A DNA stretch of 34,211 nucleotides, taken from the NCBI GenBank assembly GCA_028823105.1, contig JAPKCC010000028.1:1-34211 (forward strand), read 5' to 3'. Below, piece by piece: positions 7,456 through 31,973 of the stretch. The position numbers were made by a program, and so were the translations under genes. The stretch comes from Phycisphaerales bacterium. Its GTDB lineage: Bacteria > Planctomycetota > Phycisphaerae > Phycisphaerales > SM1A02. Each line of letters begins with the position of its first letter. The stretch's first letter is position 1. The notes beneath the pieces are model-generated. The model did not search any database, was not told where the DNA came from, and worked only from the letters and a program-made list of their open reading frames with translations.

Positions 7456-8421
7456 CTAATCAATCGTTTGGCTTTCCGGCGGGCTTGGAGTCTCTCGCTC
7501 GGTCGTGACGTTCGATCGATCGTGATCGTGGCCCCCCTCCTCGAGAAGCCCACTCCCCCACGCGATCGCGAGTCCGAGCACGAGCATCGCGGTCATCGCG
7601 ACTCGATCGTGTTCGTGGAACTGCAACTCCGGTAGCACGTCGCTCGCCGCGATGCAGATGAACGTGCCCGCGCTGAACGCCAACGCATAGATCGTGAAGA
7701 GCTGGGCATCGGACGCAAGATCCGCGCCCAGTCGGAAGAGGACAACACCGAGCGGGATCATCAATGCGAAGCCGATGTTCACGAGATGCATTGCCGCACG
7801 GCTTCGCCCGGACCGCTGCATGAGCGCCACGATCGTGAAGGCATCGAAGGGTTTGTGAAGAACGATGCCGAGGAACACCGTGAATCCAAGTAATCCGAAG
7901 ACCATCCCGTCCGCGGACACGGGCGCCGGCCCGACGGGCGCGAATTGTGCCTCGCCACTCGCCACGGCCGCTCCGAGGGCAATTCCCGCAAGGAGGGTGT
8001 GAATCGTCAGGCCGACCAGCGCCCCGATCCAACCGAGCCGATGCTCGGTGACCGGTGCATCTTCGACGCAATGGACTTTCGACCCGTGATCGTGGCCGCA
8101 GGTGTGGCCATGTTCGTCCGGTGTTTCGTGATGATGGAAGCAGAAGAACCGCTCGAGCAGAAACATGGCCAGAAAGCCGGCAACCGCGGCGAGCATCACC
8201 TCATGCATCGACGGTCCCGAGCCATGCGCGTGCACTACTGCTTCGGCGGCGTGCCCGAGCATGTGGAGCATTCCCACGCCCAGCATGACGCCCGAGACGA
8301 GACAGAGGGCCAACTGCATCCGACGGTGCGTCAGCGTGAGCCAACCCGGAACGAGCCCGCCGAGCACCGAGACGAAAAGAATAACCCCGCAGTAGAGGAC
8401 GAGAGTTGCAAACGCAGACAT
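7456..8421 (-). CDS. ZIP-family divalent metal transporter
   Basis: An integral membrane protein of 321 residues with about eight hydrophobic helices. Helices 1-3 fall before residue 95. A cytosolic-type histidine-rich loop follows (HHHETPDEHGHTCGHDHG, about 96-113), then helices 4-8 and a short His-rich tail (GGHDHDR). ZIP proteins move Zn(II), Fe(II) or similar ions into the cytosol. The helix IV and V metal-site motifs are divergent: HTLLAG at 141-146 and HKPFD at 189-193, where classical members have HxxxEG and HExPH-like sequences. Metal choice is therefore open. The start at 8421 is supported by GAGGAGG ending 8-9 nt upstream and by the hydrophobic helix that follows. tRNA-Ala lies divergently upstream. 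Confidence 0.85.
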   Translation of the reverse strand: MSAFATLVLYCGVILFVSVLGGLVPGWLTLTHRRMQLALCLVSGVMLGVGMLHMLGHAAEAVVHAHGSGPSMHEVMLAAVAGFLAMFLLERFFCFHHHETPDEHGHTCGHDHGSKVHCVEDAPVTEHRLGWIGALVGLTIHTLLAGIALGAAVASGEAQFAPVGPAPVSADGMVFGLLGFTVFLGIVLHKPFDAFTIVALMQRSGRSRAAMHLVNIGFALMIPLGVVLFRLGADLASDAQLFTIYALAFSAGTFICIAASDVLPELQFHEHDRVAMTAMLVLGLAIAWGSGLLEEGGHDHDRSNVTTERETPSPPESQTID

Positions 8422-8523
8422 GGAAGGAGCCTCCTCGACGAAAGATACCGTGGAAAGCGTTACCGGGCCGAGCTTGATGGCATCAGCGGTTGAACCCGGC
8501 TGGATGGCCGGTTGCGAGCTGGA

Positions 8524-8529
8524 TATACT
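8524..8529 (+). promoter_or_regulatory. Possible -10 element of tRNA-Ala
   Basis: TATACT, a near-consensus -10 hexamer, ends 36 bp before the mature tRNA 5' end. A start near 8536 would leave a 30-nt 5' leader for RNase P. No good -35 lies at 17 bp spacing. Confidence 0.45.
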
Positions 8530-8565
8530 GGGCCCCCCACCGACGACCGCCAAGTCGGTATCTGC

Positions 8566-8638
8566 GGGGCCGTAGCTCAATTGGGAGAGCGCCTCGGTCG
8601 CATCGAGGAGGTTGTCGGTTCGATCCCGATCGGCTCCA
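8566..8638 (+). tRNA. tRNA-Ala, anticodon CGC
   Basis: A full cloverleaf of 73 nt. Acceptor GGGGCCG pairs with CGGCTCC (one G-U). The D arm is GCTC/GAGC. The anticodon stem CCTCG/CGAGG holds loop GTCGCAT with CGC at 8599-8601. The variable loop is AGGTT, the T arm GTCGG-TTCGATC-CCGAT, and the discriminator base is A. CCA is not encoded. It reads GCG codons, which are common in these genes. Confidence 0.96.
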
Positions 8639-8650
8639 TTCACCCGCACG

Positions 8651-8689
8651 CCCTCTTCACCCGTTTCCGGGCGAAGAGGGTTTTCTTTT
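8651..8689 (+). terminator. Rho-independent terminator of tRNA-Ala
   Basis: CCCTCTTC (8651-8658) pairs with GAAGAGGG (8673-8680), and an inner CCCG/CGGG continues the stem after one mismatch. TTTTCTTTT follows. It begins 12 nt after the tRNA. Confidence 0.92.
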
Positions 8690-8700
8690 ATGCCACCCGC

Positions 8701-8768
8701 TGAACGATGCATTGACGTGAACGATGCATTGACGTGAACGATGCATTGACGTGAACGATCAATTGACG
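8701..8768. repeat. 17-bp tandem repeat, four units
   Basis: Three perfect copies of TGAACGATGCATTGACG (8701-8717, 8718-8734, 8735-8751) and a fourth with two changes (8752-8768). Each perfect unit contains the palindrome ATGCAT. The units abut without spacers, so this is not a CRISPR array. It starts shortly after the terminator of tRNA-Ala. Confidence 0.93.
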
Positions 8769-29890: not shown

Positions 29891-30304
29891 ATGGATGCGG
29901 CGATCAAATTTCAAGGAATACGGCTCGGCGGAGCTGCCCTGCTGCTTCTTCTGCTGACTGGATGCGCCCCGCCCATCCCCGATGGTGGATTCGACGCCCC
30001 GGATCCGGCCTCGAGGATCTATGCCGCCGTCCGTGTGGCCGACAAGTGGTCTTCGATCACGCCGCCCCAGGATCGAAGCCGGCCGTCGATCGCCACCCTC
30101 CAACAACTCGTGGTGATGCTCGAGTCGAGCGACCCGGCGGAACGGCTGGTCGCCTCCGAGACACTCCGAATGGTCACGGGCGAGGACTTCGACTACGAGG
30201 CTTCCGCGCCTCTGCCGGAACGATTTCTCGCGGTAAACCGCTGGCGAGCATGGGTCGATTCGCTTGCCCCGCCTCCTTCGTCCGGCCGGGGGATCGAATC
30301 TTGA
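29891..30304 (+). CDS. Small lipoprotein
   Basis: 137 residues. A short basic start, hydrophobic core ([10 protein letters not shown]) and lipobox LTGC place the lipidated cysteine near residue 24. The mature part is helical, with [20 protein letters not shown] and [18 protein letters not shown], and resembles a single HEAT-like unit followed by a short RWRAWVDSL motif seen in planctomycete secreted proteins. Function unknown. It is the first gene of a tight operon: its stop overlaps the TTG start of the RsbW-like kinase gene. Confidence 0.75.
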
Positions 30305-30789
30305 AACCTCTCCCACCACCAGCCATTCGAATGGAGATCCTCAGCCAAGCAGGCCTGTTGGCCCCGGTTCGTGCCATGCTCACATCGTTCTCGGAACGCT
30401 CCGGATTCGACGACATCGAGACCGGACACCTCGCACTCGCGGTGGACGAGGCACTCGCCAACGTGATCCGACATGGGTACGACTCACGGCCCGACGGGCG
30501 GATCTGGATCTCCGCCTATCTGATCGAAGAACCTCATCGCCGGATCAGAATCGAGATCGAAGACGAAGGTCGCCAGACCGATCCAGACCAGATCGTCTCC
30601 AGAGATCTCGAGGAGATACGCCCGGGTGGGCTGGGCGTGCACATCATGCGGGAAGTCACGGACACCTGCGAATTCGAACGCCGCAAGCCGGGGGGAATGC
30701 GGCTCATCCTCGAGAAGACACCTCGCGGAGAACACGAGAACCCCTCGGACCAGAATCACGCCGGCACGCCGGAGAATGGACACAAATGA
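30301..30789 (+). CDS. RsbW/SpoIIAB-type anti-sigma ATPase (serine kinase)
   Basis: 162 residues of the GHKL fold. The N-box is [11 protein letters not shown] (Asp49, Glu50, Asn54), the G1 box is IEIEDEG (Asp88, Gly90), and the G2 box is [10 protein letters not shown] (109-112). Proteins of this class bind a sigma factor or other partner and phosphorylate a STAS-domain antagonist. The next gene encodes exactly such an antagonist. The start is taken as TTG 30301, with a GGGGGA SD 7 nt upstream, because an ATG at 30331 would cut the first beta strand (AIRMEILSQ). It overlaps the genes on both sides by 4 bp. No sigma-factor gene is in the window. The C-terminal 20 residues are polar and probably flexible. 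Confidence 0.88.
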
Positions 30790-31133
30790 GCAGCGGGAAT
30801 GAAATGGAAATCAACGTTGAAAATCGGGACGACTCGGTGCTCGTGACCCCGATCGGCGATGTTGACCTCGCTCGAAGCCCCTCGCTTCGAAGTAGGCTCG
30901 GAAAAATCCTCGGCGAATCGCCCACCCGGCTCGTGGTTGATTTGAGCCAGGTCCCCTATATGGACAGTTCCGGGGTGGCCACGCTGGTCGAAGCCTTGCA
31001 GCAATGTCGAGCCCGCAACTGCACCCTGTTTCTCGCGGGGATGCAGGATCGCGTGCGATCCGTGTTCGAGATCGCCCGACTCGATACCGTGTTCACCATC
31101 ACTGCCGACACGAATTCCGCGCTGGACGCCTGA
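30786..31133 (+). CDS. STAS-domain anti-anti-sigma factor-like protein
   Basis: 115 residues matching SpoIIAA/RsbV and the Mla component MlaB. It has VLVTPIGDVDLARSPSLRSR, VVDLSQVPYMDSSGVATLVE and the later RVRSVFEIARLDTVF. The DSSG serines (61-62) are at the site phosphorylated in SpoIIAA and RsbV, so it is a plausible substrate of the kinase encoded just upstream. The ATG overlaps the kinase stop (ATGA). The MlaE permease gene starts 7 bp downstream, so the protein may also be the STAS subunit of that transporter. The context does not separate the two roles. Confidence 0.9.
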   Translation: MSSGNEMEINVENRDDSVLVTPIGDVDLARSPSLRSRLGKILGESPTRLVVDLSQVPYMDSSGVATLVEALQQCRARNCTLFLAGMQDRVRSVFEIARLDTVFTITADTNSALDA

Positions 31134-31139
31134 GCCACG

Positions 31140-31973
31140 ATGCCCAACACCGTCACCCAACCCGGCCCGATCACACGCGTCCTCGAAGGCGTCGGTGGTT
31201 TCGTGCTTGGGCTCTTCGAATTCGTCGGCGGCCTGTACTGGCTTCTCTACGAGGTCATCGGATGGGTCTGGCGATCCACCGTTCGACACCAATTCAGATT
31301 CGGGCGGACAGCCTTTATCTCGCAGATGGTGAGAGTCGGGGTCCGGTCGATCAGCATCGTGGTGCTGGTATCGGGAAGCATCGGGCTCATTCTCGCCTTA
31401 CAGACGGCCCCGAGCCTCGCGCAGTTCGGGCAGGTCGACAAGGTCGCCAACCTGGTAGGCGTTGCCGTCTTCCGCGAACTCGGCCCGCTCATCGCCGCGA
31501 TCGTCCTCACCGGATTCGCCGGCGCATCCATTGCCGCCGAGCTCGGGACCATGGTCGTCGGCGAGGAGATCGAGGCGCTCGAATCGATGGGCCTTAACCC
31601 AGTGCGTTTCCTGGTCGTGCCGCGCGTGATCGCGAGCGCCATCAGCCTCGTCCTGCTCTCGGTGATCGCCGACCTCTCGGCGGTCTTTGCCGGCGGTGCG
31701 ATCGGAATCCTTCAACTCGGGATCCCCTACGAGGTGTACAAGAACAACACGATCGATCAGCTCAACAGCGCCGACTTCCTGACCGGGTTGTTCAAGGCCG
31801 GCATCTTCGGGACGATCCTCGGATTGATCGCGTGCCGCAACGGACTGCGAGTCTCGGGTGGCGCTGCCGGGGTCGGCAAAGCGACGACCGACACCGTGGT
31901 TCAGACGGTGGTCACCGTGATCTTCGCCGACCTCTTCTTCACATCGCTCTTCTTCACCCTCGGCCTCGGTTGA
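31140..31973 (+). CDS. mlaE: MlaE/YrbE-family lipid ABC transporter permease
   Basis: 277 residues with five or six membrane helices. The signature FRELGPLIAAIVLTGFAGAS, then IAAELGTMVVGEEIEALESM and GLNPVRFLVVPRVIA, is diagnostic of MlaE permeases, which move phospholipids between membranes together with the ATPase MlaF, the MCE protein MlaD and the STAS protein MlaB. Here the STAS gene lies directly upstream, but no mlaF or mlaD follows: the next gene is on the other strand 10 bp away. Those partners must be elsewhere or absent. The ATG at 31140 follows the STAS stop by 6 nt. Confidence 0.93.
   Translation: MPNTVTQPGPITRVLEGVGGFVLGLFEFVGGLYWLLYEVIGWVWRSTVRHQFRFGRTAFISQMVRVGVRSISIVVLVSGSIGLILALQTAPSLAQFGQVDKVANLVGVAVFRELGPLIAAIVLTGFAGASIAAELGTMVVGEEIEALESMGLNPVRFLVVPRVIASAISLVLLSVIADLSAVFAGGAIGILQLGIPYEVYKNNTIDQLNSADFLTGLFKAGIFGTILGLIACRNGLRVSGGAAGVGKATTDTVVQTVVTVIFADLFFTSLFFTLGLG

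Follow-up and report, generated by a model that had tools for sequence, protein, structure and literature searches.

Why should a serine kinase and a STAS-domain protein resembling those of sigma factor-directed partner switches be encoded in one operon with the permease of a lipid transporter? This question is raised by a contig of 34,211 nucleotides (nt) from a Phycisphaerales bacterium (GenBank assembly GCA_028823105.1, contig JAPKCC010000028.1; hereafter the window, contig C127 of a host genome of 3.35 Mb in 194 contigs). At positions 29891-31973 four + strand genes overlap or nearly abut; their products are, in order, a small lipoprotein, a kinase of the RsbW type, a STAS protein and the permease MlaE. 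We propose that this operon probably encodes one half of an MlaFEDB-type lipid ATP-binding cassette (ABC) transporter, namely its permease and its regulators, and that the MlaB subunit would be under the control of its own kinase. The STAS proteins of kinase-less relatives mostly lack the residues predicted to be gripped or phosphorylated by the kinase, which suggests a pump switched by phosphorylation. Accordingly worded, the STAS protein is most likely a phospho-switchable MlaB, whose phosphorylation would block the binding of MlaF and turn the transporter off.

The kinase, the STAS protein and their predicted contacts

The second gene of the operon (30301..30789, + strand; HATPase_c_2 E 1.5e-23) codes for a GHKL serine kinase of the RsbW/SpoIIAB type. 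The best solved-structure match of its family profile is RsbW (6m36, E 1.4e-19), and the window kinase misses the curated RsbW equivalog cut-offs (49.1 versus 145 bits for NF003144; 43.1 versus 155.05 for TIGR01924). Two starts are possible for the kinase gene, ATG at 30331 and TTG at 30301, the latter of which would make it overlap the end of the lipoprotein gene by 4 nt. This is plausible because an overlap of the same length exists between the lipoprotein and kinase open reading frames (ORFs) of three relatives in which the two genes lie apart from mlaE (L248, L249 and L250). The STAS gene (30786..31133, + strand; STAS E 1.8e-23) starts within the kinase stop (ATGA, a 4-nt overlap), and a gap of 6 nt separates it from mlaE (31140..31973, + strand; PF02405 E 5.7e-66). 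This tight arrangement, together with an intact DSSG motif in the STAS protein, had been described in a sequence-only reading of the window and is borne out by the ORFs and the profile matches.

Judged by profiles, the STAS protein resembles RsbV and SpoIIAA more than MlaB: it passes the NCBIfam model of the anti-sigma antagonist superfamily (TIGR00377; 83.3 bits against a cut-off of 53.45) and weakly matches the STAS subunit of the Pseudomonas aeruginosa Mla entry (7ch8_K, E 4e-4). The MlaB-like role is hence proposed because of gene context and not of an equivalog score. The best solved-structure matches of MlaE are the permease of 7ch8 (E 1.9e-29) and then MlaE 6xbd (E 4.1e-27); it falls narrowly under the cut-off of the NCBIfam subfamily TIGR00056 (199.2 versus 212.2), and its closest named relatives, at 94% identity, are from metagenome-assembled genomes of Phycisphaera sp.

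Residue equivalences between the STAS protein and RsbV, and between the kinase and RsbW, were taken from HMMER alignments. Ser61 (codon 30966..30968, + strand), within the DSSG motif at residues 60-63, is the predicted phosphorylation site and aligns with Ser56 of RsbV and with the site of SpoIIAA; the phosphosites of SpoIIAA and RsbV are given as Ser58 and Ser56 in a phosphatase-STAS docking study (PMC11418112). Asp27 of the STAS protein, in the motif GDVD (codon 30864..30866, + strand), aligns with RsbV Asp23, in the motif GEID. On the side of the kinase, Arg24 (codon 30370..30372, + strand; numbered from the TTG at 30301) aligns with RsbW Arg23 and Glu50 (codon 30448..30450, + strand) with RsbW Glu49, both columns being invariant in 91/91 kinases. 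In the crystal structure of PMC7340262, RsbW Arg23 and Glu49 hydrogen-bond with RsbV Asp23 and Ser56, with Glu49 touching the serine that is phosphorylated, and the phosphosite region of RsbV also serves as a kinase contact. The catalytic N-box Glu and Asn are intact in 91/91 kinase loci, as are the G2 glycines, and the G1 Asp is intact in 90/91.

Conservation of the gene order

Our class-wide sample comprised 120 genomes, of which 119 have an MlaE and 86 a window-type MlaE (E ≤1e-60); all 86 loci were examined, with a contig-edge MlaE fragment (G019, E 1.2e-44) left out. A side observation is that 33 of the 119 have no full window-type copy. Before counting, four rows (L024, L026, L032 and L039) gave way to more extended versions of these loci (L109-L112), and L113 was dropped as a duplicate of L069. 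The order lipoprotein-kinase-STAS-MlaE was found in 51 of the 86 class loci, whereas 29 lack the kinase but have STAS-MlaE, accompanied by the lipoprotein in 28, and six have neither STAS nor kinase beside MlaE. Outside the class, 71 MlaE matches were listed (E ≤1e-45) and 60 loci were examined (20 automatic, 40 fetched; 11 left out): eleven have kinase-STAS-MlaE, three STAS-MlaE without kinase, 17 a STAS domain fused in-frame with MlaE (L116, L118, L119, L122, L124, L125, L129, L131, L133, L200, L201, L203, L205, L210, L216, L226 and L233), and in 29 no STAS was detected. None of the 17 fusions has a kinase beside it, with little upstream sequence available for L203. Beyond Planctomycetota, 34 distant MlaE loci (L165-L198) had neither kinase nor STAS by the models used. 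The idea that the order is unique to this genome is rejected, since it is shared by other genomes of the class and by loci from further classes of the phylum; its conservation in Planctomycetota, which had been posed as a check on the sequence-only reading, is established by these counts. The pairwise distances of kinase, STAS and MlaE are correlated (Mantel r 0.68-0.76, with 0/2000 permutations as high), which fits their joint inheritance. Separately, MlaE matches with one in-frame stop were observed at G220:C33 (TAA), G159:C4 and G284:C188 (both TAG), and G275:C3 and G232:C185 (both TGA).

The cluster often extends to the remaining transporter genes. Among the 51 full-order loci, mlaF and mlaD lie downstream of mlaE in 29 and mlaF, up to the contig end, in two; the 20 with neither gene in the available stretch comprise the 11 kinase-bearing loci from the window's own taxonomic order, eight loci of the class from outside that order and one truncated by a contig end (L083). 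Within the window's order the separation from mlaF and mlaD does not hold throughout, since L097, a locus without the kinase, retains both genes downstream. The eleven kinase-STAS-MlaE loci outside the class have mlaF and mlaD (eight) or mlaD (three). In the host genome mlaF and mlaD form an adjacent pair on contig C67, so that their earlier reported absence holds for the locus and fails for the genome; because the operon is intact in many relatives, we read their absence from the window as the split of a longer operon. The best solved-structure match of the C67 MlaF is the P. aeruginosa MlaF entry (7ch8), and the C67 pair presumably serves the window MlaE. The host genome's six STAS matches lie on contigs C127, C120, C107, C52, C181 and C10, and none on C67; a second MlaB accompanying mlaF-mlaD was consequently not found among them. 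Of the two findings that the sequence-only reading had named as refuting it, neither was seen.

STAS residues that track the kinase

We then examined which STAS residues are retained along with the kinase. The motif DSS[GA] is retained in 90/91 kinase-linked loci, as against 14/33 separate and 1/17 fused STAS without a kinase (88/89, 14/32 and 1/17 in the non-redundant set). For tests on the MlaE tree, rows with identical MlaE (L147, L151 and L153) were removed, reducing it from 141 to 138 rows, and 20 conserved STAS columns were tested with the correlated-evolution model of Pagel. The strongest of the 20 was Asp27, which is Asp in 98% of proteins with a kinase versus 22% of separate ones without (likelihood ratio 36.7, p 2e-7), followed by Val at column 39 (p 4e-4) and by the Ser at the third position of DSSG (p 5e-4); DSS[GA] as a unit likewise gave p 5e-4. 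As Asp27 aligns with RsbV Asp23, the conserved position that is lost most frequently in the absence of the kinase is one that should touch it.

Asp27 and DSS[GA] occur together in 87/89 kinase-linked, 4/32 separate kinase-less and 0/17 fused STAS. In 10 independent pairs with separate STAS this combined signature scored 6.5 for, 0 against and 3.5 tied (median p 0.016, range 0.016-0.125), and we regard the pair test as the more careful figure because correlated-evolution tests can overstate one-off events. The notion of a phosphorylation-controlled lipid transporter acting through a shared STAS protein, already put forward by the sequence-only reading, has in this way gained good comparative support, the phosphorylation itself being a prediction.

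Kinase-less loci as a natural experiment

An artifactual origin of the kinase-less class was considered in two forms. The first, that the kinase was overlooked by the ORF search, is rejected for two reasons: the gaps are too short, the lipoprotein and STAS domains being 71-413 nt apart in the 30 lipoprotein-bearing loci without a kinase and 487-764 nt apart in 88 loci with one, and tblastn found no kinase remnant in those 30. The second, that the kinase was merely relocated, was addressed with a profile of 15 Mla kinases searched against 29 kinase-less class genomes and 8 kinase-bearing controls. In the controls the Mla kinases scored 146.7-185.2 bits and the best other RsbW-like match 41.6-67.4 bits; the best matches in the kinase-less genomes reached at most 63.3 bits, with no match in two. 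Since none of the 29 contains a Mla-type kinase, relocation is likewise rejected, although paralogous RsbW proteins remaining in 27 of the 29 could still act.

Ten of the kinase-less genomes (L065, L076, L085-L088, L090-L092 and L094), which form the single family f8, stand out in combining the lack of the kinase with a GGAG motif, in which Gly replaces the phosphosite Ser, and with few SpoIIE matches. They have 1-4 such matches each (18 in total), compared with 4-11 in the 8 kinase-bearing controls (55 in total) and 3-11 in the other 19 kinase-less genomes (116 in total). We suggest that the f8 lineage may have shed partner switching.

The lipoprotein

The usual first gene of the operon (29891..30304, + strand) codes for a lipoprotein of 137 amino acids with a signal peptide bearing a lipobox Cys, a HEAT-like helical domain and a conserved C-terminal R...W motif. 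It has no Pfam or NCBIfam match. The lipobox Cys is invariant in 25/25 aligned rows, the window included, as are an Asp, two Arg and a Trp. Its AlphaFold2 model is all helical (mean pLDDT 89.6), and the top matches in a Foldseek search against the PDB are mostly HEAT, alphaRep and TOG folds, none of them significant (best E 0.5). The lipoprotein had been suggested as a possible envelope sensor; as a sensor specific to the kinase it is rejected, since 28/29 kinase-less class loci retain it beside STAS-MlaE. Conversely, it occurs with the kinase and STAS away from mlaE in three class genomes. Because it is found both with STAS-MlaE without the kinase and with kinase-STAS without mlaE, we regard it as part of the STAS module and not as a companion of the kinase alone, and a role with both proteins is possible.

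This distribution, in which the lipoprotein accompanies STAS with or without the kinase, would also fit a looser envelope-lipid neighborhood, wherein kinase and STAS act on lipid synthesis, the lipoprotein or a similar target instead of the transporter. The usual Mla partners MlaC and MlaA (PF05494 and PF04333) point in the same direction, being found in 0/10 genomes tested with E. coli and Caulobacter controls positive; the pathway is therefore not the E. coli one. Set against this are the 17/60 loci of other classes where STAS is in-frame with MlaE, as well as the status of STAS as a known MlaFEDB subunit (PMC7367683), and we hold such a neighborhood to be very improbable.

A proposed partner switch with MlaF in place of the sigma factor

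We next consider how the control of a transporter might operate. According to PMC7367683, E. coli MlaB binds MlaF through a helical face with Thr52 near its center, the substitution T52E weakens this binding, and MlaF requires MlaB to join the complex. In light of this, and of the phosphosite of RsbV being a kinase contact, we infer that MlaF occupies, in a partner switch, the position that a sigma factor has elsewhere: the kinase would phosphorylate MlaB and thereby uncouple the ATPase from the lipid permease, a mechanism that we consider somewhat likelier to hold than to fail. Unphosphorylated STAS would bind MlaF via its helical face in the manner of E. coli MlaB, seating the ATPase on MlaE and keeping the transporter on. 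The kinase would then phosphorylate Ser61 at the center of this face, hold the STAS protein there, or both, such that MlaF is blocked and the transporter is off. The switch might be reset by RsbU/SpoIIE-type PP2C phosphatases encoded elsewhere in the host genome, which has five SpoIIE-type phosphatase domains. Phosphorylation, MlaF binding and lipid cargo are all predicted elements of this scheme.

Several observations weigh against this proposal. With respect to the STAS protein itself, it scores 28.4 bits with the NCBI MlaB equivalog NF033618, whose cut-off is 90, and aligns to SpoIIAA up to the end of the latter, while E. coli MlaB is without the C-terminal part seen in SpoIIAA (PMC7367683). 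The same source reports that MlaB T52A is non-functional yet still MlaF-bound, a misfit with simple phosphoregulation; the switch may therefore act on activity as well as assembly. With respect to evolution, the MlaE tree requires 16 or more changes between presence and absence of the kinase, and the fitted gain rate of the kinase in the correlated-evolution model is about zero, for which reason loss of the kinase appears a simpler reading than gain. The signature is also imperfectly tied to the kinase: DSS[GA] is intact in the 14 of 32 separate kinase-less STAS mentioned above, four of them (L066, L074, L081 and L115) having the full signature, and the Asp27 equivalent is retained in 6/17 fused STAS, implying that something besides this kinase favors their retention or that another kinase acts. 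Among kinase-bearing loci, L163 has Glu at the Asp27 position, and L161 has GTPG in place of DSSG despite intact catalytic motifs in its kinase, possibly reflecting Thr phosphorylation or a decaying system. Taken singly, the elements fare less well in sign tests (median p 0.06 and 0.13 for DSS[GA]; 0.03 and 0.06 for Asp27). In the correlated-evolution model neither the phosphosite Ser nor its Asp is significant alone (p 0.69 and 0.29), nor is the strict phosphosite D[ST] (p 0.29 with separate STAS, 0.05 with all), and the change of Ser to Gly among separate STAS is limited to the family f8.

These last results bear on a related explanation, in which STAS has the structural role of MlaB and its MlaF-binding face is sequestered through stable binding of the kinase, with phosphorylation being minor or just a means of release. 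It is favored by the most kinase-dependent column being a binding contact (RsbV Asp23) and not the phosphosite, and by the loss of strict D[ST] not being significant on the tree. However, the catalytic Glu and Asn of the kinase are preserved throughout, and the phosphosite Ser is retained in 99% of STAS with the kinase versus 22/32 without; catalysis thus seems to be preserved, and we deem sequestration as the principal mode quite unlikely.

A final point against the proposal is that STAS is not adjacent to mlaE in 5/86 class genomes; the sixth STAS-less locus (L038), with just 84 nt upstream before the contig end, is uninformative. None of the five has the kinase beside mlaE either. In three of them (G052, G006 and G119) the lipoprotein, kinase and STAS genes are together elsewhere, which we count in favor of the proposal; G062 has the lipoprotein and kinase with no STAS in the available stretch, and G068 has no Mla-type kinase. 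The three displaced clusters could also be explained if kinase and STAS made up an ordinary switch acting on a sigma factor, or on another regulator, encoded elsewhere, with the vicinity of mlaE being historical or serving to link expression. Both proteins are RsbW/RsbV-like by profile, such pairs classically target sigma factors, and a sigma factor elsewhere in the host genome might yet be a partner. On the other hand, no sigma family match was found among 22 window proteins scanned with Pfam, a subset of the window's ORFs, in keeping with the earlier remark that no sigma factor is encoded nearby. Moreover, STAS remains with MlaE in 29 kinase-less class genomes, which a sigma switch does not predict, the cluster continues into mlaF and mlaD in 29/51 class loci, and the host genome's mlaF-mlaD contig is devoid of STAS matches. 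We therefore regard an ordinary switch as unlikely and retain the phospho-switchable MlaB as the preferred reading.

Other features of the host genome and the window

The host genome has two RsbW-like (HATPase_c_2) matches, the window kinase and one on C107 (L019:7505-8362), the latter beside another STAS gene with LSSA instead of DSSG. Judged by eye, this pair adjoins a ksgA-like gene and has no recognizable sigma gene nearby; it is possibly a second orphan partner switch. There are likewise two MlaE matches, that of the window and a divergent one on C47 (L003:6785-7606), which is beside a transglutaminase-domain protein on a contig with no STAS or MCE match. Further MCE-domain proteins are encoded at L018:6285-7706 (C30) and L016:7275-8681 (C20), on contigs without an MlaE match. 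Elsewhere in the window, a ZIP-transporter ORF (7456-8712, - strand) is overlapped, at its start as called, by a tRNA-Ala gene (anticodon cgc; 8566-8638, + strand), so that the ORF probably begins further inside.

Comparison with known systems

PMC7367683 calls the regulation of active MlaB an open question and phosphorylation an intriguing possibility, with no experimental evidence for it at Thr52; by word search, Mla and MlaB are absent from the main text of a review of STAS-only proteins (PMC8256260). Among the papers listed in searches of open-access literature, which leaves preprints and most subscription papers outside, there is no report of an MlaB kinase or of this gene order. If our proposal is true, Planctomycetota would gain a rapid post-translational control of inter-membrane lipid traffic, and the window kinase would supply the kind of MlaB kinase speculated on in the E. 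coli work. It would also, to our knowledge, be the first case in which a Ser-kinase/STAS switch of the Bacillus type directly gates a transporter, joining the fields of partner switching and envelope lipid transport. As a dedicated kinase is encoded with STAS, the question of MlaB regulation becomes directly testable with two small soluble proteins and ATP.

With the MlaFEDB systems of E. coli and P. aeruginosa the proposed transporter shares MlaE, MlaF, the MCE protein MlaD and a STAS subunit whose phosphosite position is Ser or Thr. It differs from them in that a HEAT-like lipoprotein and an RsbW-type kinase of its own head the cluster, that MlaA and MlaC were found in none of the 10 genomes tested, and that in the window's genome mlaF-mlaD is on another contig. 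With the RsbW-RsbV-SigB and SpoIIAB-SpoIIAA-SigF switches of Bacillus it shares a GHKL kinase, a STAS protein with a D-S-[ST]-G site, the Arg23- and Glu49-type residues of the kinase and the Asp23-type residue of STAS, as well as SpoIIE-type phosphatase domains in the genome; in contrast to these, no sigma factor is seen in the cluster, the neighbor and presumed output is an ABC transporter, and STAS persists without the kinase. The STAS-MlaE fusions of other classes resemble the window operon in joining a STAS domain with MlaE, and differ from it in having no kinase alongside and in lacking the combined signature in 17/17 cases. Finally, SypA/SypE of Vibrio fischeri and HsbA of Pseudomonas offer precedents for a STAS protein and a GHKL kinase with a non-sigma output, which in those systems is a biofilm or motility regulator and not a transporter subunit.

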